This document shows positions 2,442 to 63,706 of a stretch of DNA of 64,000 bases, piece by piece. The notes beneath the pieces were generated by a model that saw only the letters and a list, made by a program, of their open reading frames with translations, made no database searches and had not been told where the DNA came from. The translations under genes were made by a program, and so were the position numbers. How positions within the stretch are numbered: position 1 is the first letter of the stretch; each line of letters starts with the position of its first letter. Source of the DNA: Anaeramoeba flamelloides (lineage: Eukaryota; Metamonada; Anaeramoebidae); contig JANTQA010000030.1 in the NCBI GenBank assembly GCA_027625915.1, forward strand, positions 1,302,001-1,366,000, given 5' to 3'.

Positions 2442-2891
2442 CAGCCGTTCCAAGTCTACCATAAAATTTTAAATAAAACAAAATTTGGTTTTCTATTCTT
2501 ATTTTCTATTTTTAAAAAAATTCAGAAATAAGAGTTATTATTCAAAAAAAAAATTTCAATAAATGAGCTATTATTCAAATGTTTGGAAAATCGAAAAAAA
2601 AAATTCAGGATACCAAGAAACTTCAATATTACCAGTCCAAAAAAGTTCAAAAAAATATCAATATTGACTGGTCTTTAAAAATTTTAACCTTTTTGAATAA
2701 TATTTTTAAGTGCTTCATAAATCTTCACATTGTTTTTTTCGATTTTCCAAACATTTGAATAATAGCTCATTTATTGAAATTTTTTTTTTGAATAATAACT
2801 CTTATTTCTGAATTTTTTTGAAAATAGAAAATAAGAATAGAAAACTTAATTGTGTTTTATTTAAAATTTTATGGTAGACTTGGAAAGACTG
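2442..2891. mobile_element. TA-flanked foldback element (Tc1/mariner-like MITE), about 450 bp
   Basis: Two arms of roughly 165 nt are near-perfect inverted complements (2442-2607 and 2725-2891), separated by a loop of about 120 nt. The outermost bases read CAGCCGTTCCAAGTCTACC on one side. The other arm, reverse-complemented, reads CAGTCTTTCCAAGTCTACC. Both ends are flanked by TA, the target duplication used by Tc1/mariner transposons. There is no coding capacity. Confidence 0.8.
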
Positions 2892-3479
2892 TAAGTAAAA
2901 TATCAATACTGGTTTAACCAATAACTAAAGTATTTATTTCAAAATATGTTCTTAAAATATTTCAAAAAAATGAAATATATATATATATATATAAACATAT
3001 ATTTTTATATATCGTTTTTCAAGAAAAGGGATAAATAAACAATAAAATTACAAAATTCTAGAATTTCGATATTACACATCTTCTGTTCAATAATTAATAT
3101 AATATTTATATTTGCCAAAATTTAAAAGAATCATATCGAAAATATAATAGATACTTTTGTAAGATTAACAAAATAGGAGTCCTTATTGTATTAATCATTA
3201 ATAAGTTATTATGGAATAATTTATTTAGAAAAACTAAAGAAAAGATCCCGATGCCTAGAAAAAACATTGTTTAAAAAATATTGAAATGATATTACTGAAA
3301 AAATAAATTTATGAATATAAGATTTAATCAAAGTAATGATAAAGGCAAAGAACAAGTAACAAGGAAACCAAAGTATTCTCTTTCGAAAATAAGAATTTGT
3401 TAAAAAATATTATTCAAAAACTTTTTTTGAAAACCTCCAAAACAAATCAAATTCCATAATTTCGAACATACCCTATTTA
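2892..3479. other. AT-rich spacer, nothing recognised
   Basis: Very A/T-rich sequence with a short TA run near 2977-2992. I see no exon, RNA gene or repeat that I can support. Confidence 0.6.
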
Positions 3480-13024: not shown

Positions 13025-13630
13025 TTCGGGTACCTAGTGCCCCATTTTTCGGAGTTGTGGAATACCAATTTATTAATCACAGTTTGTGAAATCCAATTTA
13101 TTGCTAATAATCTTTCTATCCGGTTTTGCCCCCCCCCCAGTTTCAGGGTACGTAATTTCAAGTACCGTGGAGTGCCTAGGTTTTCTTCGAGTTTTATATT
13201 TTATTTGTTAAGTGCTCTAGGTTTTTTTGAGGTTTTCTATTTTATTTTTCTGATAAGTATTCTGTTTTTTTTTTGAGTTTTCTATTTATCTGTGAAGTTT
13301 TCATAGGTTTTTTTTCCTTTTTGAAATAAACCGAATATTTATTAAAAATTTCTGTTAATTTCAAAAAGTAAAAAAAAACCTATGAAAACTTCACAGATAA
13401 ATAGAAAACTCAAAAAAAAAACAGAATACTTATCAGAAAAATAAAATAGAAAACCCAAGAAAAATAACGGTATTTTTTTTTTTAATTTGAGAAAACTCAA
13501 GAAAACTTAACGGCGCTTATTTTTATTTCTCAAAAAAAAAAAAAAAAAGTGAACCGAAGTTTTCCAGAATTCGAAACAATTTAGTAAAATCAAAGATTTT
13601 ACTCAATCACCCCAAACCCTGAAAAACCTA
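13025..13630. repeat. Modular hairpin mosaic element, family D copy 1
   Basis: Centre: a nested palindrome at about 13225-13460 whose arms (about 115 nt each) read through three successive modules. The left arm goes from the CTAGG-TTTTTT-GAGGTTTTCTATTTTATT type, to TTTGAGTTTTCTATTTATCTGTGAAGT, to CTTTTTGAAATAAACCGAA. The right arm returns through their complements in reverse order. A second hairpin follows at 13558-13622, based on TTTTCCAGAATTC with a TCAAAGATTTTACTCAAT core. CCTAACG closes it. A C10 run lies at 13129-13138. The same modules recur in five other loci of this window. Confidence 0.75.
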
Positions 13631-15669
13631 ACGAAGGTGGATAATTTTTAATTTTTTCATGTAAATGATATAATATTTTTGTACTTTAATATTTTAATTA
13701 TTTTTCTTCTTCTCTTTTTCATTTAGTAACTTTTCTTTTATTACTCCTTTCTCACAATGAATAAAAATAATTAATATCATTTCAAAAACAACAAATGAAC
13801 TACCCACACTTTCAAGTAACATATGAACAATATATTTTGATCATTGAGTTCATTATATTGCCCCGATAAAAATGAAAAGGATAAATAATTCCAACAAATT
13901 GAGTATTTTTAGTTTGATTTATTTTTTTCTTATATTCTTATTCTTTTTTTTTTTGCCTTGATTTAGATGTTCTCATAATGATTTTGATAAAAATTACCAA
14001 AATTTTTTTTTTCACAGAATTATTATTTACCAAATACAGCAGGTTCCGCTTTTAAGACACATAGTTTGAACACAATTTTTGGAAAAAAAAAAAAAAAATA
14101 CTAACTTTATTCATAAAATTTGATTCAAGTAAAATAAACAATATGAAAAAAAAAACCCAAAAAATCAAACCCAATTTGTAATTTTTTGTACTGTAAACCA
14201 GATACACGTTGTTTTCCTAAAATTGATATTAATTTTTCTCATCTAAAACAAAAAATGAACTTTATTTATAGAAAGAAGGACTTGAGGTTCTACAAAACCA
14301 AATCTCTTTCCACAATTTTATAACAATTTGTATGTATATTGTGAAAATCAATTAAAAGTTACCAACCTATCCCCATCCCAATATTTTGACCTTTTTTCAA
14401 GAATCTTAGATTTCCGCTTACCCCTTTACCCACCCAAACATGTTTACAGATACTAATACAGCATGAAATAATATACATTTATCATAATAAATCCTAATAC
14501 ATCGGAAATAAAAAAAAATAAAAACAAACAAAAAATTACCACAAAAAATCGTTATTTATTCATCATAAATACTCTATCACCCTTACAATCACAAATATAA
14601 TATCCTTCAGAATCAACTAAAAAATAAAATTTCATCGATATTACAAAAGTTTTCTTCTCAAAAAGTGTATAATACTGTACCTCAAATACCTATTATCATA
14701 CAAAGACATTTTCTCAATTTTTTTAAAATCATCTTAAAATCTAAAGAAATATTTTGACATGTAACATATAATTTTTTTTACACATAACATTTGTTTTTAT
14801 TATAATAAATATTAACAATAAATCACATTTTAATAAACCACTTTTTTTTATTCATCCATAAATATCATTAATCTTGTTTCTATGCTATTTAATTATTGAA
14901 GAACCAAGAGTATAAATTTAAAAATTCATTAACTAAAAATTTTTTAGTTTGGTTTTCCTTCCAAAAAACATATAAAACATGGATAATATACAATATTTGG
15001 AACTGAAAATTCATATTTTTTTAAAAACACTAAAAGTTAGATACATTTATTTAAAATGAAATGAGAATTTAATTTCTGAAAATTTGATTATAAAATTTTC
15101 CCAAATTTCAGATTTTGGTGAAATGGGTGATTTTTTTTATTTCAAATTTTATAAATAGAGGCAGTCATTTCAATTTTTTGTTATTTCATTAACCCTAATT
15201 TGAAATTTATAAATTATTTTTTTCAACTTTTATTCCAAACCAAAGTTAAAAAAAAGCATGCAATCAATGAAGTTGATAGCCAATTTAATTTTTGAATATT
15301 TATTCTAATGGGTTGTTTTAAAATTTTAAAAAAACATTTTATAGATTTATTTTTATAGAAAACGTACAAACAGTATATTAAAAATAAAAAAAATCTACTC
15401 AATTTGGAATTTTTTCTAAATTTTAATTTTGAAATTGTCTTGTTCTCCAATTTAGGGAAAAAAATACAAATATTTTTATCTTTAATTTGTGATATCCCAT
15501 TGAATTTCCAAACACTAACACATTTATTTATTTTTAATATTAATTACTAATCCCAACCCGAGAAACAAAATATATTATAGCTGAGAAAAATAGCCGATAA
15601 AAAAAGTTTTAAAAGAATTCCCCAAACTACTTAAAAAAGACAGTTTTACGATTTGAACTTATCAATATG
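13631..15669. other. AT-rich spacer with a decayed TIR-like trace
   Basis: Near 14035-14085 a stretch reading TACAGCAGGTTCCGCTTTTAAGACACA resembles the terminal sequence of the foldback at 15670-15865 and is probably a relic of one end. Nothing else could be supported. Confidence 0.4.
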
Positions 15670-26074: not shown

Positions 26075-26790
26075 AGGGAGGAGTTGTTAAAATTTCTTAT
26101 TTGCGGTTAGGTTTTCTAGAATTTAAAAGAAGTCGATTTAAATCAAAGATTCTTTTCTATTCTTTTGAATTCTGGAAAACCGCTGTTAGGTTTTTTTGGA
26201 TTTATGTTTTGATTAGTGAATTGTGTAAAATCTAGCTTTTTTTTGAGTTTTCTGTTTTATTTAGAAAATCTATTGATTTTCTTTAGGTTTTTTTTACTTT
26301 TTGAAATAAACCGAAAACTTATTTAAATTTTCTGTTTATTTCAAAAAGTAAAAAAAACCTAGAACACTTCATTAATAAAATAGAAAACCTCAAAAAAACC
26401 TAGAACACTTCACAAATAAAACAAAGTACCTCACGAAAAGCAAGGCACTCTACAGCACTTGACGACACTCCCCATTAGCTTTTCCAGAATTCAAAAGTCT
26501 AGATTAAAATCTTTGATTTCACCCAATTCTTCTAAATAATGGAAAGGCACCCTTAGGGTTTCTTGAGTTTTCTGTTTATGTATAAAATCAATAGATTTTC
26601 TAAATAAAATAGAAAACCCAAAAAAAACCTAGAACACTTCACAAATAAATAGAAAACTCAAAAAAAGCTAGAACACTTTACAGTTAAAATAGAAAACTCC
26701 AAGAATATATCGTTAGTTTTTTTTTACTTTTTGAAATAAAAAAAAAACTTCGTACTCTACAGAATTCTACTAAAATTCCAAAATTCTGAA
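26075..26790. repeat. Modular hairpin mosaic element, family D copy 2
   Basis: Begins with a purine-rich GGGAGGAG and a GCGGTTAGG junction. It then contains: the TTTTCTAGAATTTAAAAG hairpin (26112-26183), a GTTAGG junction, the TTTACTTTTTGAAATAAACCG hairpin (26290-26360), tandem AACCTAGAACACTTCA blocks and the 10-bp GGCACTCTAC-type units (26441-26475). Further hairpin halves and an AATCTATTGATTTTC module follow. The same words occur in family D copies 1 and 3-6 in different order and number. Confidence 0.75.
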
Positions 26791-42845: not shown

Positions 42846-48791
<5,946 letters not shown>

Positions 48792-51405: not shown

Positions 51406-54400
51406 ATGTATAATCTTCAAAACAATTTTAACCCACAAGAAACTGAATTTCTTTCTGGTGACGAACCAATTAAAATTATTCCAAATTTTACTCTCAACCA
51501 AAAACTTGTCTTTTTAAATGTAACTTTCAGCAATATTACACATTTCTTTTTTTTTTTTTTAGTTAACCAAACAAACGATCGTTAATTATTTTTTCTTTTT
51601 CTTATTTTACTTTTTGCCTCAAAAGGGAGAATATGGACCATTTCAACCATCAATTCCAATTGAAGTGCCTTTGTGGCTTGCATTAACCTTAAGAAGACAG
51701 GAGAAATGCCAAATTACTATTCCTGTATGGTTAAGTGTTGAATTTCTTCAGGATATCCTCAAAGAAGAAAAATCAAGAAAAAAACTCTCAAAATTGCATC
51801 CTTATTTTAGTGAAATTAGTGCACAGCTTTTTGAACAGTAAGAATTCTTTTTTTTTTATTATTTTCTTTTCTTTTGATTCTCTTTTATTCAAACCTTTTT
51901 TTTTCTTTGAAAAGTAACCAAAAAGCCCAAGAAAATCACATTGCTTACTTTTCTTTACAGTTACAAGTAATTGACTTTTTCCTTATTTGTTCGTAATCTC
52001 GTTGTTGTGATGTACGGAATTGAACTTTTTTTAAATTACCATTGAGAAAAAAACTTCAACACAATTTTTAAATGGAAATCACATAAATCACAGAAATCAC
52101 ATAAATCACAGAAACCTGAAAATGAAAAGTAAGATCAATTAATAAAAGAATAAAAAAATAACTAAAGATAAAATGGAGAATTAGAACATAATAACTAATT
52201 TTTACAATACTCTCTTTGAATTGGGATTTTTCTTTGATTGATCGGTGCTTGTTTTTTTCCAATTAATAACTAACAATTTTTATTTCAATTTCCCAAAATT
52301 TCTATTTCTTCCATAAAAATGAGTTGAAAAAATCAAAAGATCTTCACAAACCAATTAAAAAGAGAAAATTTTGTTTCACTAATTTGATCCTTCCTTTTTA
52401 GAACTTTGAGATGAAATTAAATTCTTTAAAATTAGAATTACACATTATTTGAAATATATTGAAAATACAATAAAACCATCTTTATAGAAAGGGAACATAT
52501 AAATGATCAATCTTTATGCTTTTATGCTAATAATTAGAGATTATATCTTGAAAAACATATGAAAAAAAAAATAATTCCTTTTTCAAGTTCCAAATATTAT
52601 TTTTTAAATATTGTAATGATTTAATTTGGGCTTCTATTTTTGTGTTTGGAAAATTAATTAACAAAAAATAATTGAAATAAATAATAATTTTTAATTGTGA
52701 TCCTAACAAATTTAGTAAAAAAAAATTACAAAAATTAGGATGTCGTTTTTAAACATGCGTAAGTCAAGCATTTAATAATTTATTATTTAATAATATTTAT
52801 ATTAAATTTTTGTAAAGGCAATTTAAACCATAGTTCCACCAATATAATTTTCATCCAATAACAATATACCCTCATTATAGATAAACCCTGATAATGCTAA
52901 TTCCACAAGTATACAATTAGAAACTAATTAATTTTTCTTTTTTTAAATTTATCTTCAAGTTCAATAATCAGCAAAGCCATTGCTAAAATTCAATCAAAAT
53001 ATTTTCATTTTTAATTAGTTTGTAAAGTTATTGTGCTTTTTCTTTTTATTACGAACAAACAATTTTTATGTAAATTGAAAACAAAAATTTTTCTTTTTAA
53101 AGTTCTTTGTAAAAAAAATAAAAAAATTTTTTTTTATATATTACTGAGGAGAGGTGATTCAATAAAATTACCCCTGTTTGTCGTTAGTTTTTTTTTACTT
53201 TAAGAAATAAACTGAAAATTTATTTAATTTTCTGTTTATTTCTCAAATTAAAAAAAAAGCCTAGGCACTTCACGTTAGTTTTTTTTTAATTTATATAATT
53301 GAGTAAAATCTTTGATTTGACTTTATTTCTCAAATAAAAAAAAACTGTCGTTAGCTTTTCCAGAATTTAAAATATTTTACTCTATTCTTTTACACTTTGG
53401 AAAAGCGCTTTCACTCTACGGTGCTTTTCGTTAGTTTTTTTTTACTTTTTGTTTTGATTAGATAATCAATAGATTTTCGAAACAAAAAGTAAAAAAAATC
53501 GCCTTTAGGTTTTTTTGAGGTTTTCTATTTATTTGGAAAATCAATAGATTTTCGTTAGGTTTATTTCAAAAAGTAAAAAAAACCTAGAACACTTCATAAA
53601 TAAAATTGAAAACCTCAAAAAAACATAGAACACTTCACAGATAAAACAGAAAACCTCAAGAAAACCAATAGGCACTCTACGGCACTCTACGATACTTGAC
53701 GGCACTTTCTTTAAGTTTTCCAGAATTTCAAAGAATAGAGTAAAACCATATGATTTTTACTCCATTCTTTTGAATTCAAGAAAATATAGGTACTCTACGA
53801 CACTCTACGATACTTGAAGGCACTTCCTGAAACTCCCAATTTTATTTAAAGTTGTTTATCCTAGCTATAATGTTGGCAAGATAATAGCTCAAAAAATAAA
53901 ATTCTTATTCAATATCAAATCTTGATTTAGTATTTGATGTCTTACCATTTATCAATTGACCCTTTTCTCTGAAATTTAAAGACGCCCCACAAAAATGGAA
54001 GGTTTTATTTATTTATTATGAGATAGAAAATTGTAAAAAATATGGTTTTATTTGGGTGTTATTTTTATAAAATCCATCTGCACAAAAAATAAAAGCAATT
54101 CCGCCAACATTTACCGTAATAGATATAAAAAAGATGTTTTAAATTTATCCACATTTTTAAAAATTAATCAAATCATTAATTATCTATTTCCATTTTCATA
54201 TTATTGATTTTCTTAATTGATCTCTCTCTAATATTTTTTCAAAATGGTTTATTTGATATAACAATTATTTAATTCATATAATAAAGCGCGCCAAATGATA
54301 TTAATGATTTTGAAAAAGTAAGAACATTGGTTGAAGATATATGGAATGTTAGAGCTTCTAAAATTAGAGAAGGTATCAAGGATATTACCAATACAACATA

Positions 54401-61360: not shown

Positions 61361-62240
61361 GGGGGGGGGGGGTTAATTTCCTATTATAATAGTTAGCTTT
61401 TCTTGAGTTTTCTGTTTATTTGGAAAATCAATAGATTTTCGTTAGGTTTTTTTTAATTTTTGAAATAAACAGAAAATTTTATTAAATTTTCGGTTTATTT
61501 CAAAAAGTAAAAAAAACCTAGAACACTTAACGAAATAAAATAGAAAATTCAAAAAAACCTAGAACACTTTACAGATAAAACAAAAAACCTCAAGAAAACC
61601 GTCGTTATGTTTTTTTTTACTTTTTGAAATGTAAAGAAAATTTATTTAATTTTGTTTTCATTTCAAAAATTAAAAAAAACCTAGGCACTCTACGGCACTC
61701 TACAACACTTCAAGGTCAATTTCGTACGTTTTTCCAGAATTTAAAAGAATTGAGTAAAATATTTGATTTTACTCTTCTTTCGAATTCTGAAAAAGCGTCT
61801 TTAGGTTTTTTTTAATTTCAAAAATTCAAAAAAACCTAAAAAAATTCTTTTATTGAATTGTATTAAAAAAAACCGTCGTTAGGTTTTCTTGAGTTTTGTG
61901 TTTATTTGTAAAGTGTTCTAGGTTTTTTTTACTTTTTGAAATGAACAGAAAATTTATTAAAATTTTCTGTTCATTTCAAAAAATAAAAAAAACCTAACGA
62001 AAATCAATGGATTTTACAGATAAAGCATAAATTAAAGAAAACCGCCGTTAGGTTTTCCAGAATTCAAAAGAATAGAGTAAAATCAAAGATTTAGCCCAAT
62101 TCTTTTGAATTATGGAAAACGCCGTTAGGTTTTTTTTACTTTTTGAAATACAAAGAAAATTTTAATAAATTTTCTTTTCATTTCAAAAATTATAAAATAA
62201 CTGAGGCACTCTACGGCACTTGAAAGCACTTCCATAATTT
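61361..62240. repeat. Modular hairpin mosaic element, family D copy 6 (largest)
   Basis: Starts at a G12 run (61361-61372). It then strings together, with GTTAGG, CGTCGTTATG, CGTCGTTAGG, CCTAACG, CGCCGTTAGG and CGCCGTTAGG junctions, at least six hairpins. Three are TTTTTACTTTTTGAAAT pairs (61447-61520, 61613-61680 and 61925-61999), one is a TTTTTCCAGAATTTAAAAG pair (61730-61797), one a TTTTCCAGAATTCAAAAG pair (62052-62120) and one more a TTTTTGAAATACAAAG pair (62130-62205). Blocks AACCTAGAACACTTTACAG and AATCAATAGATTTTCG are interspersed. 10-bp GGCACTCTAC units occur at 61684-61715 and 62193-62235. Confidence 0.8.
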
Positions 62241-63706
62241 CTAATTTTTGTTTAGAATTTTGAATAAAGATTTCATAATTTTCTTTATCATTTATCAATG
62301 GCAAGAAAAATAAAGATTCTTAATTTTGAATAATATCAAATAGATATTATTCTTATTATTTTTGTTTATTTGGATTAATTCTTTAATCGGAATTTTTCGA
62401 TTTTCTTCATTGGATGGGCATTCAAATTCATTTTTTTTTTTTTTTTTTTGAAGAGAGGAAATGAATAAAAATAATTGATTTTTGAAATGTTCTTTGTTTG
62501 AGGTGTTTTGAAATTAGTTGGCCGAATTAAATTATTTTAGAAAATTTTTTTACCAATTTTTGGTTCATTTTTCGTTGGGAATATTGTTACCTTAGCTTTG
62601 AATAAAGTATTTTATTGGTTTAAATGTTAAGAAAGTTTGTAAAATTGGTTGTTCTTGAAAATATTATTTGTCAAGAACAGTTTTATATGGAATGTTTTAA
62701 AAATTACAAAAATGGAAATTGAACAAAGATTTTTTGTTATTTGATTGAATTTAACAGTAAAGAACCAAAATTATTTACCAAAATTACAATTACAAATTGT
62801 GATCCTTCATAAAAAAACCCATAATTTATTGTTCGATATTATTTATAATAGATTTTTTCGAGACATTTGAACATGTGAACATTGTATCACGAATATGATT
62901 TACTTTCAATTACAACGTACTTTATACTTGGCAATTGTATAGTAATGGTAATTGCTTAAGATCACTAATAACAAAAAGGATTTTCATTATATAAAATTCA
63001 AATCTAAAATCTCATCAAAAGAGTATTTTTTTTGAATGTTTTTTTTTTTGTTTTGGTTGGAATAAACGCAATAGAACTAAAATTGTTGTTAGTTTGTTCT
63101 AATGATATTTTTGAGAAAATGTGACTGTTTCTTTCTTTGATCCCAAACAACTTTCTTTATTTTTGTGAATTTTTTTTTTTTGAAATTTTATGGACAGAAA
63201 GAAGATGAAAAGCAATTTTCTAAAAGTTAAAGCTAAGAAGATTTTAAAAGTATGCAAAAAAAGATTTGTCAGCTCAAATAGAATAGACCAGTGTTCAATT
63301 AATCAAACTTTTGGTTTTCTTTAGAAAATTGCTTTACTATTGTTTGAAAATTTTATTTGTGAAAAATTAAAGGAGTGTACCCAAAAAAAATTGTTTGGGC
63401 TGTGAAAAGAGTTTTTTTTTAGGTTTTGATCAAAAACACCCAAAACCAAATTATTGAGATTAAATCGTAAAAAAATTTTTTGTTTTTTGTTTTGTGTTTT
63501 GTGTTTTGCCAAGGAAAATTCGATTCCAGTTTTTTTGGATTAACGAAACAGGTGTTCAATTTTCATTTTAAACAAAAATTGGAAAAAAAAAAAAAATTAT
63601 TCAGCAACACAGGTAGTGAGAAAATTAAACAAGTTTTAATTTTCAAAAAGTAAAGAAAAAAGAGAAAGGAATTTGCAATTTAAAAATTAAAACAAAAAAA
63701 AATTAC
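62241..63706. other. Spacer with a decayed family A element
   Basis: Apart from 62740-62955, nothing recognised. The part next to 63707 may hold the 3' exons of the right-edge gene. Confidence 0.4.
62740..62955 (-). repeat. Decayed TTAA-family A element, copy 5
   Basis: The right half only: AATTGTGATCCTTCAT, AATAATTTATTGTTC, TTATAATAGATTTTTTCGAG, CACGAATATGATTTAC, CAATTACAACGTACTTT, ending at TAATTGC then TTAA (62956-62959). Same order as copy 1. The left terminus was not located. Confidence 0.6.

Follow-up and report, generated by a model that had tools for sequence, protein, structure and literature searches.

What is the string of hairpins at positions 61361 to 62240 of this stretch of Anaeramoeba flamelloides DNA, and how was it put together from blocks that recur elsewhere? 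The stretch, here called the window, comprises 64 kb of a 254-Mb, 76-contig assembly of an AT-rich eukaryotic genome. An earlier note, made from the letters of the window alone, had described at least six hairpins joined at a GTTAGG/CCTAACG motif and had suggested a mobile system not yet described. The hairpin mosaic proved to be real, its sequence and coordinates being correct. The reading that we favor, and to which we give about as much credence as doubt, is that of a hairpin-module cassette, a nonautonomous passenger mainly of long interspersed nuclear elements (LINEs), which is copied by LINE retrotransposition and reshuffled mainly by template switching of the reverse transcriptase.

By reading, the cassette holds about nine hairpins between 61389 and 62236, namely, four B-type, two A-type, two outer C-type, and one short hairpin, both outer C-type hairpins having a B hairpin nested in the loop (Table 1). 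Folded as RNA, these 848 nt reached a minimum free energy of -287.7 kcal/mol versus -140.5 ± 7.2 kcal/mol for 20 shuffled sequences (z -20), and a repeat search returned the 148-nt pair 61398-61545 / 61894-62041 among long near-perfect inverted repeats. The claim that the hairpins open after (C)GTTAGG held for the type of boundary word but not for its exact form: exact CGTTAGG opens four of the nine hairpins, the other openings being variants that include GTTAGC, CGTTATG, TTCTAGG, and TTTAGG, and CCTAACG closes one. The 10-bp units, taken in the earlier note for interspersed runs, mostly form the tandem end of a hairpin array instead of spacers, and the unit GGCACTTGAC has no exact match in this cassette, which has GGCACTTGAA at 62215.

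A scan of sampled genomic loci (L-numbers) for module words showed a common grammar. In "+" orientation, blocks of the form G(C/T)CGTTAGG-hairpin-CC follow each other, the last hairpin is followed by CCTA, and the cassette then ends in one to about five 10-bp units, GGCACTCTAC or GGCACTTGAC. Three hairpins are common, A (TTTTCCAGAATTYAAAAGAAT...), B (TTTTTTTTACTTTTTGAAATAAACAG...), and C (TTTTCTTGAGTTTTCTGTTTATTTG, its loop containing a small palindrome), and the stems are AT-rich and about 65 to 80 nt long. Some C loops are closed directly, and others contain a mini-cassette built on the same plan (GTTAGG-[B]-CCTA-GAACACTTCAC), which can face either way; counted by simple words, 33 loops were closed and 34 held a mini-cassette, and nesting reaches three levels at 13.2 to 13.45 kb of the window and in L029. 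The smallest form seen is a single 88-bp B hairpin (TCGTGTC-TAGG-hairpin-CCTA-ACGA in L083, at the site S4 described below). Many scanned cassettes are incomplete or decayed, and the grammar does not hold in every block.

The junction motif had been supposed to act as a joining site between exchangeable blocks. We counted the words GTTAG, TTAGG, CTAGG, TTAGC, and CTAGC at the ends of 125 A and B hairpins out of 135 hairpins found, leaving out ten that were unclassified. At least one end carried such a word in 111 of the 125 hairpins and both ends did in 48, versus 5.2% (either end) and 0.4% (both) at random positions of the same loci. When the hairpins were shifted by 20 to 30 nt, only 0 to 5 of 125 scored, while an outward shift of 40 nt gave 33, i.e., the neighboring junctions. 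This sample is nonrandom, since loci L009 to L038 were picked by similarity to the 61.4-62.2 kb cassette, and the selection of hairpins by symmetry biases it toward paired stems. The proposal is supported: the junction word marks module boundaries, and the modules behave as exchangeable blocks in the scanned cassettes.

Where the cassettes reside was assessed on 22 loci whose selection did not depend on their flanks: the six window cassettes, the seven first 15-mer matches (L001 to L006 and L008; L007 overlaps L006 and was left out), and nine loci (L094 to L102) taken from the junction list on contig C9. Judged by flank similarity, mostly by eye, 18 of them lie in LINE 3' untranslated regions (UTRs) or open reading frames (ORFs) and the other 4 in a repeat termed fam5. 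Each of the 22 has at least one flank recurring elsewhere, and none lies in apparently unique sequence. The window cassettes are antisense in the 3' parts of LINE copies: the right flank of a "+" cassette is LINE 3' UTR, and its left flank, when reversed, is a LINE 3' end, with a stem-loop, AATAATAAA, and poly(A) in several of the cassettes. By reading, the left end at the 61.4-62.2 kb cassette is of the type found in L016, L024, and L027, which in the orientation of the cassette runs GGAGGAAATTAATTTC...ATTATT-poly T, and L008 and L016 share the right flank; a flank like it comes after a piece of LINE ORF, identified by tblastn, in L001. That preceding piece is what identifies the flank family fam4 as LINE 3' UTR, while for fam2 the assignment comes from a single locus, L028, in which it is followed by the tail of a LINE ORF.

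The host LINEs encode a reverse transcriptase and an apurinic/apyrimidinic (AP)-type endonuclease in one ORF, as judged from the 972-aa ORF of the related copy L081, in which RVT_1 matched with an E value of 7e-31 and Exo_endo_phos with one of 3e-4, below its cut-off. ORF pieces homologous to that of L081 adjoin cassettes in L012, L014, L024, and L040. The copies have poly(A)-bearing 3' ends (AATAATAAAAAA), and some are truncated, the start of ORF similarity differing from copy to copy. Genome-wide, RVT_1 gave at least 150 matches out of 1,306 candidates, every candidate that was scored being a match. Carriage of the cassettes by LINEs is well supported.

Three insertion sites in LINE ORFs, S1, S3, and S4, could be compared in filled and empty copies. 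For S3, in LINE family 3, the 31 copies comprised 8 filled, 22 empty, and 1 undetermined; L051 to L080 were found by a flank outside the cassette and L010 via its cassette, L051 being the same genomic copy as L012, the source of the query. No two of the eight inserts are equally long (112, 182, 273, 298, 389, 436, 441, and 586 bp). Empty copies mostly read TTGGAAGGTCCAAAAATATT and filled ones typically GGAAGTGTC-GTTAGG...GACGACACTCCA-CAAAAATATT, and L011 retains the target as GGAAGGTC-GTTAG. S1 and S4 were read in ten further LINE copies out of 40 listed. At S1, seven copies are empty (CAAACAA^CAAAAATATTT) and three are filled; the better-preserved filled sites (L024, L001, L101, and, on the right, L090) read AACA(A/G)-TCGTG...CCTAA(C/T)GA-CAAAA(A/G)AT-like, and the right end is decayed in L084 and L086. 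At S4, two copies are filled (TGGGATC or TGGGGTC-GTGTC...) and eight have no cassette, with GGGACTG in four, GGGAATG in two, and an altered site in L084 and L087. Only L090 is filled at both S1 and S4. L084 reads TTGATGGAATTGTTAGTTC instead of TTATGGGACTGCCCATTC at S4, which might be the footprint of a lost cassette.

Comparing filled with empty copies revealed no target duplication beyond one or two ambiguous bases at S1, S3, and S4, and insertion without target duplication is thus well supported. Read in "-" orientation, the S1 insertion lies between A and C. On the assumption that its target was the GGGACTG variant, S4 fits A^C. S3 is compatible with it (TTTTTGGA^CCTTCCAA), its left side having a base too many and lacking TC, and the fam2 flanks (GGGGA...CAGTGG) fit as well, no empty fam2 copy having been seen. 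Since the fam5 flanks and the entry into the C loop (T^A) do not read A^C, this target is at most a preference, and a target rule is not supported. A spliceosomal intron was rejected, as none of S1, S3, and S4 shows a GT...AG fit and the inserts face both ways; so was a translated in-frame insertion, since each of the eight filled copies reads a stop at the S3 junction (TGG AAG TGT CGT TAG and variants).

Seven cassettes were then compared across contexts. The type A-B-C[B]-A followed by 10-bp units is common to L012 and L011 (both at S3), L014 (at an ORF site of another LINE), and L022 and L028 (both in fam2) and is partly present in L027. Between contexts, this type is 83 to 90% identical over 259 to 446 bp, while the flanks are unrelated, indicating that the cassette moved as a unit. 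The suggestion of a mobile system holds to this extent; a free-standing element is not supported, given the carriage of the cassettes by LINEs and fam5. By reading, the S1 left flank and the S4 right flank meet in L014, and one L024 cassette links S4 with the LINE 3' end; recombination between two cassettes of the same element would produce such joints.

These observations can be combined into a mechanism. At S1, S3, and S4, cassettes entered a LINE ORF at a fixed point, the target not being duplicated; LINE retrotransposition would then make copies, with the stop-bearing S3 copies presumably using the enzyme of intact relatives. The in-frame stop in all filled S3 copies, together with the short tree tips of three of the eight (L058, L061, and L070, at 0.018 to 0.023, near the median of 0.02), suggests such mobilization in trans, at least of the young copies. 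Copies would gain and lose hairpins, duplicate and invert them, and swap them with one another, most likely as the LINE reverse transcriptase pauses at hairpin bases and switches template at the shared linkers. The two-sided changes in B stems, given below, also count in favor of this account. That LINE reverse transcription with template jumps yields chimeras has a precedent, in the part of PMC2104539 on which we draw.

Several observations weigh against this account. The four fam5 loci (L005, L094, L096, and L099) lie in a repeat not shown to be a LINE. The S3 junctions vary, the left word GGAAGTGTC being GGAAGGTC in L011 and absent from L065, and the 10-bp end is absent from L058. Extra right-flank bases (CCNCAAAA for CCAAAA) occur in 8 of 8 filled and 0 of 22 empty S3 copies, and the empty copies L059 and L080 read AAGTGC(C) where others have AAGGTCC, which may be the remnant of a lost cassette or a variant. 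The seventh cassette compared, L074 (S3), has a different module order and aligns at 69 to 77%. The filled S3 copies do not form one clade (approximately unbiased test, P = 0.0005); their tree needs five changes, at least two of them forced by well-supported branches. This could mean that LINEs have recombined or that one site was entered repeatedly. Taken with the shared right-flank bases, the simplest joint reading is that of few founding insertions plus recombination between LINE lineages. Five of the eight filled S3 tips are long (0.048 to 0.2), so that most of these copies are old. Cassettes also occur in both orientations relative to the LINE sense strand ("+" at S3 and "-" at S1, S4, and the 3' UTRs), an arrangement not produced by exchange among sense RNAs only, and entry at a fixed point with no duplication resembles the work of an enzyme more than template switching.

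The last point leads to an alternative that we regard as possible, if doubtful, in which the hairpin unit is itself an enzyme-driven nonautonomous mobile element with TCG...CGA ends that leaves no target duplication and enters favored targets in LINE DNA, cDNA, or RNA as well as its own loops, repeated nested insertions build the arrays, and LINEs only amplify them. S1, S3, and S4 were each entered at one point without target duplication, junctions including the fam2 flanks are compatible with A^C, the 88-bp single-hairpin form exists, and some C loops hold a mini-cassette while others do not; transfer as a unit, the two orientations, and the scattered filled S3 copies are likewise as such an element would leave them. 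However, all 22 loci have a recurrent flank, A^C is not general (the eight S4 sites without cassette comprise four GGGA^CTG, two GGGA^ATG, and two altered, and the C-loop and fam5 junctions differ), and the right-flank bases confined to filled S3 copies fit few founding events. Neither did an enzyme come to light. Y1_Tnp (PF01797), searched with this one profile, had 0 matches in the genome, the same profile matching in 5 of 14 control genomes. Tyrosine recombinase (PF00589) is encoded by five genes (G000:C70:3139134, C30:109877, C64:7769349, C37:1272451, and C34:7115257), three of them with open frames of more than 400 aa, and no cassette words were found around the two examined of the five (L092 and L093). 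The full-length element encoding a recombinase or a Rep/HUH protein that the earlier note had envisaged did not turn up: no responsible enzyme or autonomous element with cassette ends was found, Helitron and other enzymes not having been searched. A bolder idea, which we think unlikely, sees in the ~88-bp hairpin unit (TCG...CGA ends) an undescribed class of mobile palindrome that would enter LINEs at fixed points without target duplication, as well as the loops of its own kind, thereby building nested arrays, with LINE reverse transcription making the copies heritable and reshuffled; entry might possibly take place in LINE RNA or cDNA instead of the chromosome.

The stems themselves bear on two further explanations. 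If, at the DNA level, replication slippage, hairpin-templated correction, and gene conversion between arms created, symmetrized, inverted, and multiplied hairpins in LINE copies that were repetitive already, no dedicated mobility would be needed. Changes in both arms, transversion pairs included, are what such instability would produce: one A-stem pair swaps G-C and C-G (GC:13, CG:11), and B column pair 21-62 alternates UA/AU. The C and B interiors also occur in both orientations, and B mismatches have no strand bias (GT 34, AC 32 in 76 orientable hairpins). Entry at fixed sites, transfer between unrelated flanks, and boundaries at one word are left unexplained, and since the same module strings are seen at nonallelic, unrelated flanks, we take palindrome instability to be a contributing process at most and improbable as the full explanation. 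It is very improbable, in our judgment, that the cassette is a structured RNA kept by selection, such as a LINE retrotransposition signal or a regulatory 3' UTR structure, even though the predicted fold is very stable. B stems gave 138 cells with two-sided changes versus 57 in shuffles (0 of 500 as high) and, by number of pairs, 14 versus 11.6 (14 of 500 as high), a signal raised in part by a subfamily whose two arms are both shifted by one base, whereas A stems, the G-C/C-G pair aside, barely exceeded shuffles (19 cells versus 14; 26 of 500 as high). Before these counts, two long nested B hairpins and then 5 of 44 A and 16 of 79 B rows, mostly short or irregular, were dropped by hand. Among 41 orientable A hairpins, GT mismatches numbered 59 and AC mismatches 25, and a single pair accounts for 28 U-G cells of the A alignment; 3 A and 5 B hairpins of unclear orientation were omitted from the strand-bias counts. 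Because arm-to-arm copying gives the same pattern, two-sided change was not taken as proof of RNA function, and neither pair counts nor strand bias made a convincing case for a conserved structured RNA. Moreover, L081 and its 98 to 99% identical relatives L049 and L050 have no cassette in the examined flank, insertions interrupt ORFs, and Rfam gave 0 matches at the gathering threshold in the 64-kb window. Finally, the cassettes are short, noncoding, repetitive, and palindromic, as would be ordinary interspersed satellite or debris of miniature inverted-repeat transposable elements (MITEs) of a known kind; that explanation is hardly credible, as they are not tandem, have no target duplication and no TA or TTAA target at the sites with an empty copy, and follow a nested grammar, and the empty-site comparisons largely refute it.

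The cassette is one of many. By reading, the window contains six cassette loci (~13.15-13.63, 26.10-26.75, 44.84-45.01, 45.92-46.02, 53.18-53.82, and 61.39-62.23 kb), the number that the earlier note had given; a word-cluster scan misses the small one at 45.9 kb and splits that at 61.4-62.2 kb in two. A motif-blind hairpin finder returned 10 strong hairpins in the 64 kb, all 10 of them within four of the six cassettes (13.3, 26.3, 53.2-53.8, and 61.4-62.2 kb). CGTTAGG occurs 7 times in the window versus 0.88 expected from shuffles (five in the 61.4-62.2 kb cassette), GYCGTTAGG 3 times versus 0.07 (all three there), and GGCACTCTAC, with up to one mismatch, 11 times versus 0.23 (three there). 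Genome-wide, the exact 16-mer junction ACCGYCGTTAGSTTTT has 1,176 copies (609 + 567) and GGCACTCTACGGCAC has 1,527 (755 + 772), the reversed control word giving 0 in both cases. GGCACTCTACGGCAC occurs 3 times in the window versus 0.4 expected from its genome-wide count, so the window is several-fold richer than average; for this reason, scaling from two or three word occurrences in the window gives roughly 3,000 cassettes in the genome and not the ~24,000 extrapolated from six per 64 kb. The cassette probably exists in thousands of copies, and the expectation of hundreds to thousands per genome is supported by exact words that exceed one thousand. Confinement to a few tandem arrays, which would have spoken for ordinary satellite, was not observed: the 100 places listed of the 1,176 junctions lie dispersed over contigs C1, C6, and C9, on either strand, and tandem satellite DNA was rejected on this ground. 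In other genomes, 0 of 112 stretches (78 from viral contigs with the strict junction and 34 from prokaryotes with the 10-bp-unit 16-mer) had at least four of nine cassette words within 300 bp (16 had three), versus 37 of 38 loci (L001 to L038) in the genome itself; since none reaches four words, the viral-contig and prokaryote matches are attributed to chance.

Table 1. Features of the 61.4-62.2 kb cassette and of the other cassettes in the window
Feature	Positions	Strand	Remarks
Host LINE 3' end, antisense: poly(A) as poly(T), ATTATT, decayed terminal stem-loop	61334..61391	-	by reading
C-type outer hairpin, nested mini-cassette in loop	61392..61601	+	5' arm 61398-61421, 3' arm ~61573-61597
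Loop of the 61392..61601 hairpin, first part			small palindrome s (61423-61438), GTTAGG (61441), hairpin B (61443-61520)
Loop of the 61392..61601 hairpin, second part			GAACACTT unit, extra C-like 3' arm D, second GAACACTT unit
B-type hairpin	61602..61683	+	stem 61611-61679
Three 10-bp units GGCACTCTAC GGCACTCTAC AACACTTCAA, closing first array	61684..61713	+	
A-type hairpin	61723..61796	+	arms around 61730-61790
Short hairpin TTAGGTTTTTTTTAATTTC...AAAAAAACCTAA	61798..61839	+	by reading
C-type hairpin, interior inverted versus first C-type: AAGTGTTC-TAGG-[B 61919-61996]-CCTAACG-AAAATC...	61877..62043	+	148-nt inverted repeat
GCCGTTAGG junction and A-type hairpin	62044..62120	+	stem 62052-62120
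GCCGTTAGG junction and B-type hairpin	62121..62203	+	stem 62132-62197
10-bp units GGCACTCTAC GGCACTTGAA AGCACTTCC, cassette end	62205..62233	+	
Host LINE family (fam4) 3' UTR, antisense; similarity end approximate	62234..62330	-	by reading
Cassette, triple nesting, symmetric arms, fam2 context	13150..13633	-	
Cassette adjoining LINE 3' end	26104..26745	+	
Cassette, A hairpin and decayed B, fam4 flank	44842..45010	-	
Cassette, one A hairpin and 10-bp units, antisense in LINE copy 3' UTR	45917..46030	+	
LINE ORF C-terminal part, same copy as 45.9-kb cassette	46460..47191	-	tblastn, L081 ORF q726-969, 64% identity, E 4e-91
Cassette, LINE 3' UTR context fam1 as at 45.9 kb	53182..53824	+	

Some further observations concern the neighborhood of the cassettes. 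The window contains eukaryotic genes, e.g., eRF1, whose domains are split between 43.0-43.7 and 48.1-48.8 kb; within this split gene (43021-48791), a LINE piece and hairpin cassettes lie between the parts. The repeat fam5, seen in L018, L037, and L096, is apparently a non-LINE repeat with the same cassettes, extending at least 350 bp to the left and ~340 to 430 bp to the right of the cassette. In L018, fam5 contains a ~390-bp inverted repeat, and its right end borders on LINE family 3 close to the S3 site. The LINE of L081, which looks intact, lies directly upstream of a chaperonin-like gene (L081:4218-4360) that we take to resemble TCP-1/CCT. The LINE copy of L040 has an open frame of 649 aa, and a foreign insert (2721-2960) splits the B hairpin of its 3' UTR cassette; in L001 (1650-2135), an element with inverted ends ACAGTGATCAAAATAATGCGTG / CACGCTTTATTTTGACTACAGTATA, presumably a mariner-type MITE, lies inside a cassette B hairpin. 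Similar palindromic hairpin repeats at L046:~2835-3025 (CAGTCAGTTTCACTTTTAAGGCACAAA...) and L044:2571-2651 probably represent another MITE family, and a near-perfect hairpin with 63-bp arms at L060:1334-1465 is unrelated to the cassettes.

If the favored reading is true, a second, rapidly changing layer of parasites lives in the UTRs and even the ORFs of this lineage's LINEs, and filled and empty copies of the same sites coexist in one genome. It would then become testable how a palindrome enters a retrotransposon without target duplication and whether hairpins drive template switching of reverse transcriptase in vivo. In the portions of the literature on which we draw, no description of such hairpin cassettes in LINEs was found.

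Among known systems, several share single traits with the cassettes. The attC sites of integrons have the core words GTTRRRY / RYYYAAC, which the junction GTTAGGT/ACCTAAC fits, and hairpin blocks exchange there; the likeness is weak, being that of a degenerate 7-bp word only, and no integrase gene or coding cassettes were seen with the hairpin cassettes. Helitrons insert without target duplication and have a 5' TC end, a 3' hairpin, and nesting, all of which the cassettes share, but Helitrons insert at A^T and end in CTRR, whereas the cassette sites are not A^T (S1 and most S4 copies are compatible with A^C in "-" orientation) and the cassette ends are TCGTG...CCTAACGA. MITEs and foldback transposons are nonautonomous, palindromic, modular, and of high copy number, as are the cassettes, which differ from cut-and-paste elements in lacking target duplication at three sites and in being carried mainly by retrotransposons. 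Double hairpin elements are known from mitochondrial genomes. They resemble the cassettes as invading hairpin-forming elements, and the same holds for the repetitive hairpin elements of mitochondrial genomes as presented in the relevant part of PMC2800124; unlike these mitochondrial elements, the cassettes are arrayed, nested, and located in LINEs on large nuclear-type contigs. LINE template-jump chimeras, as far as that aspect of PMC2104539 goes, also arise when jumping reverse transcription joins unrelated RNA pieces, but those are chimeric retrogenes, while here a recurrent cassette with its own ends is shuffled repeatedly at a fixed linker. The remaining parallel is bacterial. In the sections of PMC2817692, PMC3116915, and PMC8266576 that concern us, repetitive extragenic palindromic (REP) elements, bacterial interspersed mosaic elements (BIMEs), and REP doublets forming hairpins (REPINs) are high-copy short palindromes combined into mosaics, and REP-type elements have a conserved word at one end, according to the corresponding part of PMC3733652. 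Arrayed short palindromes with a conserved foot word are thus common to these systems, served by the Y1 transposase TnpA_REP/RAYT, and to the cassettes, which differ in their AT-rich stems of ~65 to 80 nt, in having nested hairpins, and in their residence in eukaryotic LINEs, in a genome with no Y1_Tnp match. If our reading is true, the cassettes are a eukaryotic counterpart of the bacterial hairpin mosaics that works without their known transposase.

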